Origin: Mycoplasmopsis lipofaciens ATCC 35015
GTDB taxonomy: Bacteria > Bacillota_I > Bacilli_A > Mycoplasmatales > Metamycoplasmataceae
DNA: 64,000 nt
Direction of reading: 5' to 3'
Assembly (NCBI RefSeq): GCF_000686585.1
Contig: NZ_JMKY01000005.1
Coordinates: 1 to 64,000, forward strand
In this document: positions 3,663 through 49,820 of the stretch, piece by piece
Layout of the letters: the number at the start of each line of letters is the position of its first letter
Numbering within the stretch: position 1 is the stretch's first letter
Position numbers and translations under genes: made by a program
The notes under the pieces: generated by a model
The model's input: the letters and a program-made list of their open reading frames with translations, nothing else
Databases searched by the model: none
What the model was told of the DNA's origin: nothing

Positions 3663-4241
3663 ATGAAAGTAGTTGTTGTTTTATTATCAATAATTTTATC
3701 TTTAGTAGTTTTAATTCTATTAATTGTAACCACTCCATATATTTTGAATAAAGTAAAGAATAAAATTTTAAAAAACCAATACAACAAATTAGGCAGAAGT
3801 AGTCAAATTCGTTTAATTAATCAACTTCGTGAAGCTGTGGAATATTTATCGAAAAATAAAGTAGGAGCATTAATCACTATTGAAAATAACGATAATATTG
3901 AAAGTTTAAGAACAGACGGTGTTATTCTAAATGCCAATATTTCTTCAAGTTTATTAATTTCAATTTTTAATAAATATTCACCCCTACATGATGGTGCAGT
4001 AATTATTAGAGATAATAAAATTTATTATGCATCTACTTTTTATAAGATTACTAAAAAATCAATCGATAACCAATATGGTGCACGACATAGAGCAGCAATG
4101 GGAATTAGCGAGTTATGTGACGCAACCACAATAATTGTAAGTGAAGAAACCGGTAATGTTAAATTTGTTAAAAATGGTACTTTTTATAATATTAGATTGG
4201 ATCAATTCCAAGAACAATTAATTAAATACTTAAAGGATTAA
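3663..4241 (+). CDS. cdaM: Di-adenylate cyclase, CdaM type
   Basis: 192 aa. Residues 3-26 are one membrane helix, unlike CdaA with three; this matches CdaM, the form known in Mycoplasma pneumoniae. The DAC domain follows: HDGAVII at residues 109-115 and GARHRAAMGISE at about 139-150, the two motifs that bind ATP and metal. The expected reaction is 2 ATP to c-di-AMP plus 2 pyrophosphate. Second gene of a three-gene operon, 1 nt after the small membrane protein and 1 nt before mgtE. c-di-AMP controls potassium uptake through KtrA in Firmicutes; ktrA is at 27311 in this window. Confidence 0.92.
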   Translation: MKVVVVLLSIILSLVVLILLIVTTPYILNKVKNKILKNQYNKLGRSSQIRLINQLREAVEYLSKNKVGALITIENNDNIESLRTDGVILNANISSSLLISIFNKYSPLHDGAVIIRDNKIYYASTFYKITKKSIDNQYGARHRAAMGISELCDATTIIVSEETGNVKFVKNGTFYNIRLDQFQEQLIKYLKD

Positions 4242-4242
4242 A

Positions 4243-5673
4243 ATGATAGAAGAACAAGAAAAATTATTAAATAAGAATATTGTTAACATAGTTAAAAATA
4301 AAGATATAAATCAAGCACGCCTTTTACTAGATGAGCAACCTAATGCTGATATTGCTGCAATTGTTAATGATTTAACAACAGAAGAACAAATAACATTTTT
4401 ACGTTTATTAAAAACAAGTGATGCAGCTGAAATATTTAGTTATTTAGATGATGAAATTCAAATAAAATTAGCACAAAGTTTTACTGAAGAATGAGGAATG
4501 AAATTGCTTCAAGAATTACAAAGTGATGAATTAGTTGATGTTTTAGAAGAATTGCCTGCTAATGTTACAAGTAAAATTTTAGCATATACTCCTCATGAAA
4601 AACGAGCGACATTAAATAGATTATTACACTATGATGAAAATCAAGTGGGTTCAATAATGAGTATTGACATTTCAAGTATTTCAAATTCATATACTTGTGA
4701 ACAAGCTTTACATAAAATTCGTCGTGATTACAAAAAGAGAAATGCAGAATTAGTACATTATTATTATGTTGTTAATGAAACACAAAAGCTTTTAGGCGTT
4801 TTAACTTTGGAAGAAATTATTTTTGCTAATCCACAAGATAAAATTGATGACATTTATTCACCTGTTGCATCAATTAAAGCAAGTGATAAAAAGGAAGAAG
4901 CAGCACAATTATTTAGCGAACACGATATGTCTGTTTTACCTGTTACAAACAATGAAAAAAGACTTATAGGTATGATAACAAGTGATGAAGTTATTGATGT
5001 TATACAAGAAGAGACAACAGAAGATTTATATAAAATGGCTGGTATTAATGCAGATAAAGCAAATGAGCACGAATATATAAAAACACCATGATATAAACTT
5101 GTTCGTTTTCGTTTAGTTTGATTAGTACTTTTATTCTTATTTGCAACGTTGACACAAATAATAATTCATGCGTCATTAAGTGCAGTAATGACAAAAGTTG
5201 CTGAAACAGCATCACTAGTTATTGCATTTGCAGCAATTATTCCGGTTATTAATAATACAACCAGCAATAGTGGATTACAAAGTAATATAACTGTTTCACG
5301 AGCATTAAGTTTAAATGAGATAGAAAAAGAAAATTATTTAAAAGTTATTGGTAAGGAAACACTTGTTGGTTTTGCATTAGGTTTAATTTTAGCAATTTTA
5401 AATGTAGCACGTCTAGGAATTTATTTTTCAATAACTAAGGATTTACTAGGTTCAAATGCAATGCAATATTGAGCAATTATTATTTCTACATCAGTAGCGT
5501 TATTGATTGCTTTAACATTATCAAAAACTTTTGGAGCATTATTTCCAATCATATGAGCAACATTTAAAAAAGATCCTTTATCAATTTCTGTTTTAACAAT
5601 TAATACGATTATAGATATTATTTCATCTTCATTGTTATTTGGTTTCACTTTCTTAGTAATTCAAATAATTTAA
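4243..5673 (+). CDS. mgtE: Magnesium transporter MgtE
   Basis: 476 aa with UGA tryptophans. Order of domains: an N-terminal superhelical MgtE_N domain (residues about 20-125, with DELVDVLEELPANVTSKIL), a CBS pair (about 140-260, with GVLTLEEIIFANP, MSVLPVTNNEKRLIGMITSDEVIDVI) and a C-terminal region of five membrane helices from about 283. In the last helices NTTSNSGLQSN and KKDPLSISVLTI fit the conserved membrane core; the Asp-Pro corresponds to the pore-lining DP of MgtE. It imports Mg2+ along its gradient and the cytosolic domains close the pore at high Mg2+. Last gene of the cdaM operon. Confidence 0.93.
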
Positions 5674-5875: not shown

Positions 5876-7672
5876 TTATTTTTTATCTATATTAGTTTTA
5901 AGTATATTTAAAAAAGCTTCTTGTGGTACTTCAACACGACCCAACATTTTCATTTTCTTTTTTCCTGCTTTTTGTTTTTCTAATAATTTTTTATATCTCG
6001 AAACATCAGCAGCATGAAGTTTAGATGTTACATCCTTACGATATGCTTTAATTGTTTCACGTGCAATTATTTTGCTTCCAATTGTTGCCTGAACTGGAAC
6101 TTCAAATTGTTGTCTTGGAATACTTTCTTTTAATCTAACACATAAATCTCTTGCTCTAGGATAAGCATTATCACGATGACAAATAATTGAAAATGCATCA
6201 ATTTTATCACCATTTAACAAAATATCAACTTTAACTAAATCACTTATTTTATAGCCAATAACATCATATTCGAATGAAGCGTAACCTTTTGTAGAACTTT
6301 TTAATCTATCAAAAAAATCTAAGACAATTTCAGCTAACGGCATTTCGTAAACTATTTTAGCTCTATTTGCATCAATATATTGCAGATCTTTATAAATACC
6401 ACGTTTATTTTGACATAATTCCATAACATTACCTATATATTCATTAGGTACTAAAATAGTTGCTTCAATATAAGGTTCTTCAATATGCTCAATAAACGTT
6501 CTATCAGGTAACAATGATGGATTAGAAACTAATTCAACTTCTTTATTAGTTCTAAATACTTTATATTCTACACTTGGACTAGTAGCAATTATTCCAATAT
6601 GGTATTCTCGGTTTAATCTTTCTTGCAATATTTCCATGTGTAACATGCCTAAAAAGCCAACTCTAAAACCAAAACCCAATGCTTTTGATGTTTCTTGTTC
6701 TCAAGTTATTGAACTATCACTTAATGAAATTTTTTCAAGGCTTTCTTTTAATTCCATATAATCTCTAGTATCGACTGGATAAAATCCAGTAAAAACTACA
6801 GGTTGCTTTTTCTTGTAGCCAGCTAATGGTTTATCAGCAGGATTGTTCACTAAAGTAATTGTATCTCCAACATTAACTTCTTTTGCGTCCCTAATTGTTG
6901 CTGCAACTCAACCAACTTCTCCAGCTTCGAGATATTGTTTCTTTGTTTCTTTAGGATTTTTAACTCCTAATTCGCTAACAAAAAATTTTTTATTACTTGC
7001 CATGAATTTAAATTCATCATTTACTGCGAGTTTACCTTCGAAAATTCTAATTAACATGATAACTCCACGATATTCGTCAAAATATGAATCAAAAATTAAA
7101 GCTTTTAATGGTTTTGTATCATCAGCATTAGTTGGACTAGGAATATATTTTTCAATGGCTTCCAAAACTTCTTCACAATTTAACCCTGTTTTAGCGCTAA
7201 TACATACTGCATTGTCTGTTGGTAGTCCTATAACCTCTTCAATTTCTTTTTTAGTCATTTCAATATCTGCTGAAGGCAAGTCAATTTTATTAATTATAGG
7301 AATGATAGTTAAATTATTTTCTAAAGCTAAATACACGTTAGCTAAGGTTTGTGCTTCAATACCTTGTGTCGCATCTACTAATAATAGTGCTCCTTCGCTC
7401 GCCGCAAGCGAACGAGAAACTTCATAAGTAAAATCAACGTGTCCAGGTGTATCAATCAAATGAAAAATATAATCTTTATATTTAATCTGTACAGCATTTA
7501 ATTTTATTGTAATTCCTCTTTCACGTTCTAGGTCCATTTGATCTAAAAATTGATCATCCATATCATGTTGATTTACTGTGTTAGTTAATTCTAAAATACG
7601 ATCTGCTAATGTGCTTTTACCATGATCAATATGAGCTATTATTGAAAAATTCCTAATCTTATTTTTTTTCAT
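5876..7672 (-). CDS. lepA: Elongation factor 4 (LepA)
   Basis: 598 aa, the normal LepA length. GTPase G1 AHIDHGKST at residues 13-21, G3 DTPGHVDF near 77-84, G4 NKID near 131-134 and G5 SAKTG. The C-terminal LepA-specific domain is seen in [26 protein letters not shown]-like [13 protein letters not shown] and the Lys-rich tail [26 protein letters not shown]. It is a ribosome-binding GTPase that promotes back-translocation or late initiation steps. Start at ATG 7672 with AAGGAA upstream; divergent promoter region shared with the kinase at 7779. Confidence 0.97.
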
Positions 7673-41966: not shown

Positions 41967-42007
41967 AAAATATTGGAATTCATCATTAAAAAATTCCAAT
42001 ATTTTTT
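41965..42007. terminator. Bidirectional terminator between converging genes
   Basis: Perfect 16-bp stem AAAAAATATTGGAATT/AATTCCAATATTTTTT, 11-nt loop, overlapping the last base of the degV stop. It serves the gene at 41484 and the operon ending in degV. Confidence 0.9.
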
Positions 42008-42882
42008 TATATCTCTTTATTTTTTAATTTAGGTATTATACTAAAACAAATAGCTTCTGGACCTGTATGAATTGCAATTGTTGATGTATTTAGAGTTTGA
42101 GAATCAAATTTAACACCATGTTTCTCGCACAAATCAATTACTTGCTTTGTAAATTCTTTGTCAATACCATAAATAAAATCGACATTATAATATTTATTTA
42201 AATCCTTTATTTCTACATTAGCAAATTCGGCTGTTTTGGTTAGCATTTGGTTAATAGCGCTTTTAACACCTCTTGCAATTCCTCCCGTACTACCTGAACC
42301 ATTATAGAATTTAATATATGGTTTTAATTTTAGTTTTGCTACAGTTTTTAATAAAACTTTTTTAAAACTAGAAATCCTTCCGCCATTTATTACGTAATTA
42401 ATATTTAAAGGAAGGACAAATAAAATAGATTTATTTTTAATTTCTACTAATTTTTCTATAACAACATTTATATCTTGATATTTTTCATATATTCTTCTTG
42501 CATAATCTACAACATAATTATATTGATTTCCAACTCAACCATTATCAAACACATGAAAGTTAGAAAATTCTCTTTTAAATGTTTGCGCTGTTGAACTAGA
42601 TGAAGATAAATTTTGACCAATTGGGAGGTATAAAACATCATCGTATTCTTTAGTCATTTTTGAAATAACTTCCTCCATTGTTGAATATCTAGCTAATGAA
42701 GTCTTAACGTCTTTTGATTTATCAATTTTATGTAGTAATTCCTCTTTTTCTAAATCAATACCATCTTCATATTCTACTTCATCTAAAATACATCTAAACG
42801 GAAAATATCCAAAACCCTTTTTGTCTAATTCTGTTTTTTGCTCACTAATAAATGAATCAAAAATAAAACCTATTTTTTTCAT
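42007..42882 (-). CDS. DegV family fatty-acid-binding protein
   Basis: 291 aa with a UGA tryptophan. IGFIFDSFISE at the start, PFRCILDEVEYEDGID, KTSLARYSTMEEV, LYLPIGQNLSSSSSTAQTF with the S-rich lipid-head site, INYVINGGRISSF and ANLHTGPEA-like STIAIHTGPEAIC; these are the DegV landmarks. Fatty-acid-binding proteins of this family (FakB) hand fatty acids to the FakA kinase for phosphatidic acid synthesis, feeding the PlsY step at 63058. Last gene of the asnS operon, AGGAGG site 6 nt before ATG. Confidence 0.93.
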
Positions 42883-42905: not shown

Positions 42906-44525
42906 CTAATAATTATACTCAATGTTTAGTTTTTTAATAAAGTAATCATCTAATTTTTCATCTAACCCTTCATAGATAACTAAGGAATTTTTGATATTTT
43001 TAATTATTTTTATTAAATTAAATAATTTTAAATAAGTATAAGAGTCATATTGAAATTTACTTGAAATGTTTTTACCGATTATAAACGTATTAATTTTGTT
43101 ATTACTAATATAATTAATTAATTTTTCATCTATTTTTTCAATGTAAAAACCTATTTTAATGCTTTTGTCAATAATGTTGTCGAGTGCATCATCAATATTA
43201 TGATAGTCAAAATCTATTTCATTTACATTTACCATTAAAATAGTGTTTTTTCGGGTGTAATTTTGTATATTATTATACAAGTCGTATTCATTCGAAATTA
43301 AAATAATTTGTTCTTTTGTTCCACAACTCTCGATTAAGAAATTATTTCATTTTTTTGTATAAATTAACTTATATCAAGGAATATTTTTAAAAAAATTAAA
43401 ATCTTCATCAGTTAAACCCGATATTATATTTTTTAAAATTTTTATATTTGAAGGTTTATTTTTTTTAAACAAATTAATGTCAATAGTTTCTTTTATAAAT
43501 TTTTGAAAATTATTTTTATTTTCATAATCATTAACTTTAATTAAATATTTTTCAAAATTTTCTAGGTGAACATTATTGTCTAAAAATCAAGTGGAATATA
43601 ATGCTGAATCTTTATTGTTTTCTAAATTGTGAATTAAATATTTACATTTATCATTGTATTCTTGAATAAATTTCTTTTTTTCAAAACCTTTAGAAGTTAA
43701 AATAGAATATTTATTGAAAAATGGATTAATGATATTGTTTTTACAGATATATTCCATAATATCTAATGAATGTTTAATATATTTTTTTAATCTGTTCTGT
43801 GATTTTACGATTATTAAAATATTTAAAATTCCATTTTTTACATATAAAAAACCTTTATATTTTTGAATATCAAGAATTTTTGTAATTTTTTTTAAATCAC
43901 TTTCTGTAATTTTATCAACATAAAATAAAGAATTAATTGATAATGCATAACCCAAAAAAAATTTGCCCTTGGTCTTTTTAACAATTTCGTTTTCAGATTT
44001 AATAGTTTTAAATCTATGAATTCTATTAGTTTTGTTTTTAAATTTTCAATGTATCACACAAACATAGTTATTTGGTTGTTCGTCCAATAAATAAAATTTT
44101 AATTTTAGATTAACATCTTTGAAATTTATAAATTTATTTTTAAAAATTCGTTGTAATGAATTAGTTTTAATACCTTTATCACTCATTTTACAAATAATTT
44201 CAGCATTGTTTTTTTTATCATCTAAAAATTTTATTATTTCTTTTTGAGAATTTTTATCAAAGTATGAAAGAAAATCATTAAAATCAACATAATCATTTAT
44301 TTTAATACCTTCTCTAAGTGAATCAAAATTTAGACTTCCGCTCATTTTTTTATTGCTTAATCTAACAACAATTTTTTGGTTATAATCAATTTTAAAAATA
44401 GCTAAACCATTTGTGCTAAATGCTCTAATGGTATACATCCTTTTAAATATATATGATAAGTAGAAAATAAGAGATAAACTAAAAATTGATAAAAGTATTA
44501 TTAAAATAATTGTGTATATATTCAT
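42906..44525 (-). CDS. Membrane protein with degenerate PAS/GGDEF/EAL-like modules
   Basis: 539 aa, UGA codons throughout. Residues 4-27 are one membrane helix. Residues 40-155 fit a PAS-like sensor (FSTNGLAIFKIDYNQKIV... NDFLSYFDKNSQKEIIKFL). Residues 185-285 look like a ferredoxin-like fold with the strand/helix order of a GGDEF domain, YALSINSLFYVDKI and GFLYVKNGILNILIIV, with no GGDEF motif left. From about 400 the order of strands follows an EAL barrel: TILMVNVNEIDF, SIKIGFYIEKID, INTFIIGKNIS and near residue 518 VIYEGLDEKLDDYFIKKLNIEY, which parallels the end of EAL domains (viaEGVET, lgcd). Catalytic EAL and metal residues are mostly absent. Overlaps the pcrA stop by 1 nt (TAATG). Possibly a receptor that binds but does not cut a cyclic dinucleotide; not established. 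Confidence 0.65.
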
Positions 44526-46708
44526 TAGTTGATTCCTTTATCTTTTAATAGTCTTATTGAATCATGGTTTTTAGCAAGAGTTCTAATTTGTGGAGAATTT
44601 ACAAATCTAACATCTATGGTATCATCATTAACTTGTAATACTGTACCTTCACCGAAATAGGTATGACTTATTACATCTCCTACTAAAATGTTTTTATTTA
44701 TAGCTCTTAATTTTTTTTCATCTGTAATTTCAGAATAATCAATATTTATTGTCTCTTCTTTGATTATATAATTTTTTAAATCAATTCCCATTTCGCTAAT
44801 AAAACGAGATGGATTTTTTTTATGATTAGTTCCAATTAAAAATCCTCTACTATCACTAATGAATAGTCTATCTCTTGCTCTTGTTAAAGCAACATATGCT
44901 AACCGTCTTTCTTCTTCTAATGCTTCTTCATTATCAGATTTTAATGCATGTGTGTTTGGAAAAATGTAATCACTCATGCCTACTAAAAAAATGTTATCAA
45001 ATTCTAACCCTTTGGCTGAATGAACAGTCATTAGCGTAACATAATTTGTTGCATTATCGTATTCATCTCCTGCTGAAAGTAGCGAAACAGCTTCTAGATA
45101 TTCTTTAATTCCCTTATCTTTATTATTTTTTTCTCAGTTCTCTATCGAACGTAATAATTCATAAATATTGTCACTGCCCGTGCCACGTAATGTTACATCA
45201 TCTTCTATATATTTAAAATATTTAACTTCTTCTAAGAATTTTTCTAATACTAAGGCTATAGAATTTGTATCTAAAGCTTTTCTATATTTTAAGAATAAAT
45301 TAAATAATGAAACTAATTTTTTCTTAGTTTCAATTGGAATTGGAATAGTTTTAATATGTTTAAGAATAGCATTATGTAAAGTCATAGATTTTTCTTTAGC
45401 AAATGCATTCAATTTGTCAAGTGTTTTTTCGCCTATTTTTCGTGTTGGGATATTAATAATTCTATTTAATGATATATCAGAACCATCATAGATAACTCTT
45501 AAAAAAGATAAAGCATCTTTAACTTCGCGACGTTGAAAGAATTTTTGTCCATTAAAAATTTTATGATTAATGTTTTCTTTAATCAATTCTTCTTCAAATG
45601 GACGTGAATAATAATTTGAACGATAAAATATTGCAATATTTTTCAATTGTATTTTTTTCTTTTTTAATTCATTAATTTTTTGAACAACTCATCTTGCTTC
45701 AGCTTCAGCACTAAAAGCATGAGTGAATTCAATTTCTTCTCCAACATCGTTTAAAGTAACTAAGTCCTTACTAAAACGTTTTTTATTGTATTTAATTAGT
45801 TTATTAGCAGCATCTAAGATGGTTTGTGATGAACGGTAATTTGTTTTTAAAATTACAGTCTTGCAATTTTTAAAATCTTTAGCAAAGTTTAATATTAAAT
45901 TAACATCTGCTCCTCTTCAACTATAAATTGTTTGGTCGGGATCTCCAACAATTGTTAGCTGCGCATTATTTGAGGTCAAATATTTAACAATTTCATATTG
46001 CATTTTTGATGTGTCTTGAAATTCATCAACTAAAATAAATGAATATTTAGAACTTCAAATCTTAACAACTTCAGGAAAATTATCAAACAATTCTTTTACT
46101 TTAATAATAAGATCGTCAAAATCTAATGTTTTATGATTAATTAAATATTTGTTATATTCTTCATATATTAATCCAATACGTTCATTGGGTATTTTACCTT
46201 CAGGGTCATTTTTATCTAATTCTTTTATTAATTCATTTTTATCTAAATTATTGTTTTTAGCAGAAGAAATAATTTTAATTAAATTTTTATATGACATTTC
46301 TTGTGAAACAATGCCATAGTGTTTATAAATATTTTTTAAGATAGTTTTTTTATCTGTTTCGTCAATAATTTGGAAATCATTGCTTAAATTTAAGTGCAGA
46401 GCCTCTTTACGTAAAATTTTGGCACACAAAGAGTGAAAAGTACATATTTCTATATTATCTGTTTCATCTCCGGTATATTGACGTACACGCTCACTCATTT
46501 CGTTAGCTGCTTTATTGGTAAAGGTAACAGCTAAAATACGATTAGAAGGTATTCCTAATTCGCTAACTAAATAGGCAACTTTCCGAGTTAAAACACGTGT
46601 TTTACCACTACCAGCACCAGCAATAATACGCAATGGTCCATCAAAATACAATAGCGCTTCTTTTTGATCAGCATTAAGTTCTAATAATATTTGTTGTACT
46701 TTATTCAT
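44525..46708 (-). CDS. pcrA: ATP-dependent DNA helicase PcrA/UvrD
   Basis: 727 aa with UGA tryptophans. Q-motif LNADQKEAL, Walker A AGAGSGKT at about residues 31-38, motif Ia [23 protein letters not shown], motif II DEFQDT (near 45990 on the minus strand), [13 protein letters not shown], motif [18 protein letters not shown] and motif [18 protein letters not shown]-terminal [15 protein letters not shown] is the typical UvrD/PcrA Tudor tail. Repair and rolling-circle helicase. AAAGGAGA site. Confidence 0.96.
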
Positions 46709-46727: not shown

Positions 46728-47390
46728 TTAACTATCTATAAATTCATATTTATTGTTATTGTGACGAAATGGCATTAATTTTTGTTTATTTATAATTTTT
46801 TTAATTTCAAAGTGTTTAAGATAAACAATTCTACTATCAGAAATAAAATCGAATAATGATCTATTATCTTTTCGAACTATTAACATTCCATAATGAATTG
46901 CTATTAATAGAAATCAAATACTTGATAATGTGTAAATTAATCTATTTGTCATTATTAATTTAAAATTCTTACTTGAACGAATATTATTTGTTATTTGTTT
47001 AAATTCATCTATATCTTTTGGTCATATTAATATAATTAAAATTATTATTATAAAAATGTAATAAAAACAAGTAATAATACTTTTTTTGAGTATTGTTTTG
47101 TAAAAATTATTTTTATTTTTTATGTCATAAAGAAGTTGTGTCTGTAAAACAATCATACCAATTGTTCTTCCTTGAAAAACCAACGGTATTAATAAAAATA
47201 AAACTAAACAAATAGTTATACTTATTAAATTAAAAGTTATAAATTCCTTATAATGATTGTTAGCGTTTTTAACAAACAAAAACCAATAATTAATAGTAAT
47301 TAAGATTAAAAATAAACTAAAATCAATTAAATTCAATAAAAAACGATATCAAAAAGATATATTTTTATGTATAAATTTGTTATAAATCAT
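46728..47390 (-). CDS. RDD family membrane protein
   Basis: 220 aa with several UGA. Four membrane segments (about residues 15-35, 45-70, 105-130 and 150-170). R-x-LLNLIDFSLFLI near residues 16-30 and FQGRTIGMIVLQTQLL near 75-90 match the RDD pattern (Arg, then Asp-Asp-like, with a later G-x-T-x-G). Function of RDD proteins is mostly unknown; some are transporters or stress regulators. Its start overlaps the end of the glycosyltransferase gene by 11 bp. Confidence 0.72.
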
Positions 47391-48390
47391 TAATAATGTC
47401 TTTTCATTCCGATTTAGGCGGTAAATATATTAATTTTTTAGTTTCTTGATTATCTTTGTGAATGTAAATATTTGTATTAAAAAATAATTGCTCTTCGTTA
47501 TGCGCTTTTTCTAAATATTTATATAAATCATTAATAAATTTTTCTGTTCTTTTTTCATTGTAATTAATACGATCCTTTATTACGCCGAAACCACCTAAAA
47601 TTCTAAATTTTCAGGAATCTAATAGGCTTGTTAAAAATATTTGTAAGAAATAAATTCGTGCATAATCTAACTCTTGATTTAGTTTAATATTATTTACATT
47701 TAGAAAGTTTTCAATAATTTTAAACTCTCCAATAAAATTAATTGGATTTAATCATGTTGTTGATGATATAAACTCTCTAACGATTCTTCTGTCATCATAA
47801 ACATATGTTTGAGCGTTGATTAATAAAAAATATGTTAATTCTAAACAAAATTTGGTGTCAGTTGTTTCTTTAGGTTTGTGTTTTATAAATTGTGAAATTA
47901 ATGATTTTTTAAATATTTTATTAAAAATAAATGGGAAACTATAAGCGATAAACTCTGGATTTTTATCTTTTTTATATAATTTCATAGACTCTAATCTAGC
48001 ATGAGGTTTTCATCTAAAAGTACCTACAAGACGAGGTTTAAATTCAAATACATCAGGTTTATGTTCGTCAAGATTTTTAATTAATTCTTGAACAAAATAT
48101 GGTCTGAGTGTATTATTAGAAAACATTATATGTACATAAGAAGCTTTAACCATATGAAAAGCACAAACAATATCGCTTTGAGTACTTTTACGTTTATCAT
48201 TTATTATAAATTTTAATCTTGAGCCAAAGAATTGAAGATTTTTTTCAAGAATAGAATACATTTTTTTAGATGCTGATGATAAAACCAAAATTACTTCAAA
48301 ATCTTGATTATTTTGAATTTTTAATCCTTCTAGCAAATTAGATAAATTTTTTGAAGAATTTATTGAAGGTGAAATAATTGAAATTTTCAT
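47380..48390 (-). CDS. Family 2-like glycosyltransferase
   Basis: 336 aa. N-terminal GT-A fold: KISIISPSINSSKNLSNLLEGLKIQNNQDFEVILV, typical nucleotide-sugar-binding strand-helix, then IVCAFHMVKASYVHIMFSNNTLRP where the DXD motif should be; only N-N/D-like residues are seen. So the fold is recognised but the acceptor and donor are not, and activity is not certain. No membrane helix. Within the asnS operon. GGAGTAG site 4 nt before ATG. Confidence 0.75.
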
Positions 48391-48399
48391 ATCTACTCC

Positions 48400-49752
48400 T
48401 TACATTTTTATATTTCCACTTGTTCTTGGATATGGTATAACATCACGAATGTTATCAATGCCTGTAACATACATAACTAATCTTTCAAATCCAATCCCAA
48501 ATCCAGCTGAACCACTATCACCAAATCTACGTAAATCTAAATATCACTGTAATTCTTCTTGACTAATACCTATTTCTTTAGATCTTTGTAATAATTTTTC
48601 ATATCTAACTTCACGTTGGCTACCACCAATTAGTTCACCAATACCTGGAACTAATAAATCAAATGCTGCAACTGTTTCATTATCATCATTTTGATGCATA
48701 TAGAAGGCTTTGAAAGATTTGGGGAAATTAATAACGGCAACAGGACCATTAAATATTTTTTCAGATAAATAACGTTCGTGTTCAGTGCCTAAGTCAAGAC
48801 CAAATTTAATATCTTGTTCTTCAAAATTTTCTTTAACTTCAGCAAGCATCTTAATAGCATCACGATAGTCAACAATTTTAAGACCACTATTTATAAAATT
48901 ATTTAATCTATTAAGTAAATTTTTATCTACATTTTCAACTAAATATTTAAATTCTTGGGGGTGTTTTTCAATTGTATTTTTAATAACATTTTTTAATAAG
49001 TCATTAGCAAGATTTATATCATCATTTAAATCATAAAATGCTACTTCAGGTTCTACCATTCAAAATTCAGCAGCATGTTTTTTAGTGTTTGAATGTTCAG
49101 CTCTAAATGTTGGTGCAAATGTATAGACTTTTTTAAATCCAAGTGCATAACTTTCCGCATGTAGTTGTCCGGTTACTCCTAATGTAACTTTTTTTGAACC
49201 GAAAAATGGATTTTTTGTTCCATCATTTACAAAGAATGTTTCTCCTGCACCTTCACCATCATTTGAAGTTATTATAGGCGCATTAAAATATAAAAAACCA
49301 TTTTTATTAAAATAATTGTGAATTTCTAATGCTAATGTTGAACGAATTAACATTGCGCAACGTAATAAATTTGTTCTATGTCTAACATGAGGAATTTCTC
49401 TTAATGTTTCTAAATTAATGGCTTGTTTTTGAATTGGATAGTCCAAGTCAGCATCTTTTAATAATTTAAAATCATTAGCTAATAATTCAGCAGGTTGTTT
49501 TGCTTGTGGAGTTAAAACAATTGTTCCTTTAACATAAAGTGCTGCGCCCAAGTGAATTTGATCTAATAAGTCAAAATCAAAGTTACCTTTAAATGTTATT
49601 TGTAAGTGTTCAACAGTAGATCCATCATTTATAGCAATAAAACGAATTTTTTTATTTCCTCTATTCGCGGTTACTCAGCCTTTTATTTCTAACTCTTGAT
49701 TTTCAAATTTTTCTATCTGTTTAAAAATTTTTTTAATTTCAATTTCTTTCAT
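48400..49752 (-). CDS. asnS: Asparagine-tRNA ligase
   Basis: 450 aa. N-terminal OB-fold [20 protein letters not shown], class II motif 1 [37 protein letters not shown], motif 2 [23 protein letters not shown] and motif 3 [15 protein letters not shown], with the AsnRS-type [11 protein letters not shown] and PRTSG. It charges tRNA-Asn with Asn. GAGGTGAAT site; head of a six-gene operon down to degV. There is no T-box-like leader upstream. Confidence 0.97.
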
Positions 49753-49820
49753 ATTCACCTCTATAAAAACATAAAAAATTTTAATAACATTATCTTTGAA
49801 AAAAGTAATCAAAATTGATA

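Follow-up and report, generated by a model that had tools for sequence, protein, structure and literature searches.

A heavily eroded relative of PAS-GGDEF-EAL proteins is encoded behind pcrA in mycoplasmas

The closest functional precedent for the protein described here is CsrD of E. coli, a membrane-bound regulator of CsrB/C RNA decay that is indifferent to c-di-GMP, has degenerate GGDEF and EAL domains and binds protein through the latter (PMC5876332). EIIA(Glc) binding and stimulated decay of CsrB/C by RNase E are its defining activities. CsrD carries a GAPES4-HAMP sensor part, and in inactive EAL domains generally it is the ExLxR motif that decides c-di-GMP binding (PMC10333796). LapD and FimX, likewise inactive GGDEF-EAL proteins, keep ExLxR and bind the nucleotide. 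PA0861 (RbdA; PDB 5xgb, 5xge and 5xgd) combines PAS, GGDEF and EAL domains; the PDB titles name c-di-GMP and GTP as ligands co-crystallised with it. GdpP joins an N-terminal membrane part, a PAS domain and a degenerate GGDEF domain to a DHH-DHHA1 C terminus. Mycoplasmas are considered to have lost c-di-GMP signalling. In Ca. Oceanoplasma callogorgiae, gene U1 encodes a membrane-anchored mollicute EAL protein and has been claimed to imply c-di-GMP use in some mollicutes (PMC11535214).

We analysed a 64,000-nucleotide stretch of the Mycoplasmopsis lipofaciens ATCC 35015 genome (the window; contig NZ_JMKY01000005.1), in which an earlier reading by eye had proposed a degenerate PAS-GGDEF-EAL-like membrane protein. 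The reading frame lies at the positions given, but on the minus strand, and is intact from its ATG at 44525; under code 4, with four TGA codons read as Trp, it encodes 539 amino acids (Table 1). Over its full length the protein belongs to NCBIfam NF045955, the MHO_4530 family (residues 5-539, 320.1 bits against a cut-off of 125, 2.5e-95), an entry that carries neither a function nor a domain annotation. The sole paper found that names MHO_4530 reports it as a hypothetical protein in an M. hominis infection array (PMC5533444). No domain assignment for the family was found in the literature searched, whose coverage leaves out most subscription journals, and as far as that literature shows the PAS-GGDEF-EAL reading is new to the family.

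Table 1. Features of the MHO_4530-family locus in the window, and the gdpP gene of the same genome
Feature	Position	Strand	Basis
MHO_4530-family protein: membrane helix, likely PAS-like, likely degenerate GGDEF-like and degenerate EAL (by profile) domains	42906..44525	-	Reading frame and NF045955
N-terminal membrane helix, residues 3-34	44424..44519	-	AF2 (pLDDT ~85 at its start); family hydropathy
Likely PAS-like domain, residues 36-165	44031..44420	-	VIA-align of AF2 models
Likely GGDEF-like domain, residues 190-305, order b-a-bb-a-b-a	43611..43958	-	AF2 secondary structure, both models
Hairpin turn V229-K-N-G-I-L234 where the GGDEF motif would lie	43824..43841	-	Sequence; AF2 hairpin strands 224-230 and 233-240
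Degenerate EAL domain (by profile), residues 310-539	42909..43598	-	hhalign, residue counts, VIA-align
pcrA/UvrD helicase, upstream neighbour	44525..46708	-	TAA overlaps the MHO_4530 ATG
RDD membrane protein, conserved neighbour	46728..47390	-	PF06271 9.8e-08; synteny
Family-2 glycosyltransferase (GT2), conserved neighbour	47380..48390	-	PF00535 4.4e-10; synteny
Asparaginyl-tRNA synthetase (asnS), conserved neighbour	48400..49812	-	Read from ORF sequence; synteny
DegV protein, downstream	42007..42882	-	PF02645 4.7e-44; position varies between genera
Full gdpP (PAS, GGDEF_GdpP, DHH, DHHA1)	L169:415-2391 (G000 contig C2)	-	Same genome; beside rplI, dnaB/dnaC

Taken singly, the protein gives little away. 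A Pfam scan returned no EAL, PF00990, DHH or DHHA1 match, a single-sequence search found zero related loci, and an alignment-based search recovered three Mycoplasmopsis loci. An AGS_C match at 0.03 is below cut-off, is absent from all other 49 members scanned and was rejected, as was the unrelated 1ivz, a single weak match (0.013) from an hmmsearch of the PDB with the family profile.

Family profiles are more telling. Profile comparison identifies a degenerate EAL domain in the C-terminal 230 residues: hhalign aligns the 88-member family profile with EAL domains of Bacilli at 90.7% (E 1.2e-6) and with Spiroplasma-type EAL proteins at 96.1% (E 3e-9), E-values that are rough for single comparisons, so that the argument is the contrast with controls. 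The controls, ten unrelated families (triosephosphate isomerase, GDPD and eight neighbour families) plus reversed profiles, stay at or below 1.9%. With 95 members the two values become 92.0% and 96.8%, and the EAL alignments are collinear over about 205 columns. PF00563 also matches the C terminus of several relatives (E per genome 6.4e-6 in G061, 8.7e-4 in G069, 0.003 in G062 and 0.008 in G068); at individual loci the values are 3.8e-5 for L142 and 0.001 for L143, which encode the G061 and G069 proteins, 0.0016 for L159 and 0.019 for L161. The protein of L161, a diverged relative, further matches NF008281, the CsrD model, at 0.005. The EAL-like end that had been suspected is thus borne out by both kinds of comparison.

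Support for the PAS-like and GGDEF-like domains comes from predicted structures. AF2 alignments comprised four rows, the window protein and three Mycoplasmopsis relatives, and because of this small number the models are of low confidence: mean pLDDT 52.6 and pTM 0.32 for the window protein, 61.9 and 0.38 for the M. buteonis homologue (24% identity). In the latter the PAS and GGDEF blocks are mostly at pLDDT 70-85, and in both models the first half of the EAL domain falls below 50. Searched with Foldseek against 350,542 PDB chains, both models find PA0861 first (6.3e-6; M. buteonis 5.7e-6), followed by LapD, DosP, MorA and EAL domains. PA0861 shares all three predicted domains and their order with the MHO_4530 protein. 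With VIA-align, PAS-like residues 41-162 of the window protein superpose on 6pps_D (Z 8.9, 2.8 Å over 91 positions) and the M. buteonis model on the FixL PAS domain 8js5 (Z 8.2, 3.0 Å over 94). For GGDEF, the M. buteonis model matches 3ezu (Z 7.9, 3.7 Å over 124) and DosC (Z 7.8), and the EAL block of the low-confidence window-protein model matches 4kie (Z 11.1, 4.2 Å over 161). Since a Z near 8 can, by VIA-align's own caution, reflect a common arrangement, we regard the PAS-like domain, between membrane helix and GGDEF-like domain, and the GGDEF-like domain before the EAL domain as likely, a grade below shown. The PAS-like assignment comes from predicted structures, the sequence-profile comparisons having included no PAS profile; its best conserved motif is G-x3-F-x-I-D near the domain start. 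The GGDEF block taken alone is not significant by profile even with 95 members (hhalign P 0.03-0.13).

The block order first read by eye is supported by two AF2 models and by Foldseek, and for the EAL block by sequence as well. The outcome that would have overturned it, models lacking a ferredoxin-like fold and a TIM-barrel C terminus or matches to unrelated families alone, was not seen. The boundaries set by eye (160-290 and 395-539) were roughly right and are now placed as in Table 1. The single membrane helix is likewise upheld by the AF2 prediction and by the relatives, 81 of 88 having a lone hydrophobic segment close to the N terminus and the other 7 having two. We conclude that the protein is a heavily eroded relative of PAS-GGDEF-EAL proteins, its PAS and GGDEF parts being drawn from predicted structure. 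An unrelated alpha/beta barrel membrane protein with a convergent likeness to EAL would sit easily with the low model confidence and with the few other TIM barrels far down the Foldseek lists, but we consider it highly improbable, as the profiles single out EAL over TIM or GDPD barrels and the PAS-GGDEF-EAL order matches.

So, could the protein still handle c-di-GMP? Catalytic motifs had been thought lost, and residue-level mapping over 88 relatives agrees. The EAL Lys is kept in none of 88, the second Asp of DDFG in 4 of 88, the EAL Asn in 7 of 86, the EIT Glu in 6 of 87 and the ExLxR Arg in 4 of 86. The only catalytic-site position retained is Glu519, the Glu of the EAL 'AEGVE' (74/88); the EAL motif's own Glu lies in an unaligned stretch, outside these counts. 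The GG(D/E)EF signature is absent, as the turn reads VKNGIL and the protein has no PF00990 match. Other aligned EAL proteins of the order are also degenerate. PF00990 exceeds its cut-off once in 320 genomes of the order, and no recognisable diguanylate cyclase was found among them by this model, part of its eleven matches having been opened. Those opened are GdpP-like genes or fall in a gdpP neighbourhood: the match in the window's genome is gdpP, and those in L205, L206 and L208 are gdpP-like genes beside rplI or dnaB/dnaC. Given the loss of the catalytic residues and of ExLxR, and with no recognisable maker of c-di-GMP, it is improbable that the protein is an enzyme or a receptor for c-di-GMP. 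That the protein binds or turns over c-di-GMP, as its EAL fold and the published claim for the Ca. Oceanoplasma callogorgiae gene (PMC11535214) might suggest, would have to be reconciled with the loss of the catalytic Glu, Asn, Asp and Lys positions and of ExLxR, and we give it very little credence. LapD, a second-tier structural match, and FimX resemble the MHO_4530 protein in being inactive but differ in the ExLxR motif, which they keep and this family has lost; the residues for the chemistry captured in the PA0861 crystals are lost here too.

The original prediction had also noted the layout of GdpP. The N-terminal membrane part, PAS and degenerate GGDEF domains of GdpP do resemble those predicted for the MHO_4530 protein, but its C terminus is DHH-DHHA1 whereas here it is EAL-like. 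GdpP identity is rejected on these grounds and because the genome encodes a genuine gdpP (658 aa) elsewhere. Of the original prediction as a whole, the degenerate PAS-GGDEF-EAL architecture, the lost catalytic motifs and the EAL-like end are supported; the GdpP reading and the suggestion of a relic are not.

NF045955 matches 130 of 320 genomes of the order, 128 of them among the 135 genomes of one GTDB family (f1), and the two matches outside f1 are short and weak. In the remaining seven f1 genomes a diverged homologue lies directly behind pcrA (E 1e-8 to 7e-28), so that none of the 135 is without one. Among the six closest pairs dN/dS ranges over 0.045-0.086, rising to 0.25 in pairs of 60-72% identity, where dS is near saturation; pcrA is lower in the same pairs (0.015-0.137). 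The gene is kept under purifying selection and is intact in nearly all genomes. One copy (G124) is split downstream of pcrA into two ORFs (80 and 448 aa), which may be a frameshift, a pseudogene or a sequencing error, and the G051 copy is possibly broken by one in-frame TAA. These two copies and the high divergence (14-37% identity of family members to the window protein) would suit a decaying relic without function, yet this reading is scarcely credible for a gene with a homologue in all 135 genomes of a group noted for losing genes, a frame open in nearly all of them and such low dN/dS.

From this architecture we infer that the protein is probably a membrane-anchored, catalytically dead PAS-GGDEF-EAL protein that serves as a regulatory scaffold of the CsrD kind, independent of c-di-GMP. 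The N-terminal helix would anchor the soluble part at the membrane's inner face. The PAS-like domain would receive a small-molecule or membrane-state signal, and the GGDEF-like domain would pass the resulting change on to the EAL-like barrel, where a protein (or RNA) partner would bind; the protein would neither make nor break a nucleotide. Dead GGDEF-EAL regulators are arranged in this way, with a helix-tethered sensor, a relay and a binding barrel. A membrane helix and a degenerate EAL domain are common to CsrD and this protein, whose GGDEF-like domain is predicted; the sensor part differs, being predicted as PAS-like, and orthology is not claimed. Mean column entropy differs little between the three domains (2.84, 3.00 and 2.91), so no interaction surface stands out. 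Every sampled member of a near-minimal genome group thus keeps the shell of a c-di-GMP system without its chemistry, and since the dead shell is kept throughout, the PAS-GGDEF-EAL scaffold would have a job that needs no c-di-GMP. A gene so far known only by the name MHO_4530 family thereby gains a concrete hypothesis, and the question of what such scaffolds do gains a tractable system.

In the window, asnS, GT2, RDD, pcrA, the MHO_4530 gene and degV form a run of six genes on one strand, in keeping with the proposed operon, and the pcrA stop and MHO_4530 start share one base (TAATG). Contigs of M. cricetuli, M. buteonis and M. sturni carry the same cluster, with family proteins of 547, 533 and 544 aa. 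Immediately upstream lies pcrA in 85 of 85 loci, two of them outside f1 (L159 of f2 and L161 of f5), and at the seven diverged members (92 loci examined). Gaps, which depend on mechanically assigned starts, range from -17 to +44 nt, with 52 of 85 between -1 and +3. Downstream, proS follows in L161 as in several f1 genera. A dedicated partnership with PcrA, for example as its membrane tether or regulator, would account for this unbroken linkage, which extends to two members from other families, and for starts that mostly overlap or abut. Against it, RDD, GT2 and asnS are conserved in the cluster too, and the linkage may be no more than that of a frozen operon; the sampled genomes of families f7, f8 and f11 have other genes behind pcrA. 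We think a PcrA partner unlikely, if the foremost of the alternatives to a CsrD-like scaffold.

The remaining alternative concerns c-di-AMP. The window does encode the c-di-AMP cyclase that had been pointed out (3663-4241, plus strand). Sensing of c-di-AMP by the EAL-like or GGDEF-like domain would fit the presence of both a diadenylate cyclase and gdpP in the genome, and a second family of dead EAL proteins is encoded directly upstream of a diadenylate cyclase (DAC) gene at three loci (L137, L138 and L141; the L141 DAC gene was recognised by sequence, without a profile scan). To our knowledge, c-di-AMP is not a ligand of any EAL domain. In the loci examined, moreover, the MHO_4530 gene never adjoins cdaA, and no pocket residue is conserved except Glu519; c-di-AMP sensing is accordingly rated slightly below the PcrA partnership, as rather unlikely. 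Broader and more doubtful again is the idea that Mycoplasmatales, after losing c-di-GMP, repurposed two dead EAL proteins, one behind pcrA and one before cdaA/mgtE, as receptors or regulators in c-di-AMP signalling (potassium/magnesium). If true, an EAL fold reading c-di-AMP would be without known precedent.

The second mollicute family (smpB-EAL-[cdaA]-mgtE) is membrane-anchored like the MHO_4530 protein and matches it at 96% by profile, and its aligned Spiroplasma-type members have also lost the catalytic residues. The Spiroplasma-type proteins differ in their neighbours and in a longer N-terminal membrane part, and because both families coexist in one genus (g9) they are not one orthologous gene. 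Protein U1 is membrane-anchored too. In most of L137, L138, L141 and the Spiroplasma-type loci L122-L131, the gene of the second family lies near smpB and before mgtE. The EAL gene overlaps or abuts the DAC gene placed before mgtE at L137:6450-8968, L138:7082-9551 and L141:7023-9523, and L141 has a DAC-like gene twice in tandem (6342-6920 and 7023-7601, minus strand), the two copies agreeing in length and start sequence. In the window the cyclase gene is directly followed by mgtE, without an EAL gene (3663-5673, plus strand).

Some proteins outside f1 deserve mention. Those behind pcrA in families f3 and f4 are of the right size and mostly have a membrane helix; in a small profile with L159 they reach 85.6%, and singly only L313 reaches 22%. 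As L159, itself a member, may carry the former match, they are not claimed as members. In family f11, a one-helix EAL protein is encoded directly before proS (L135:7954-9756 and L140:7997-9781, both minus strand), and is possibly a moved MHO_4530 orthologue; in L140 the turn in the place of GGDEF reads YDGQF.
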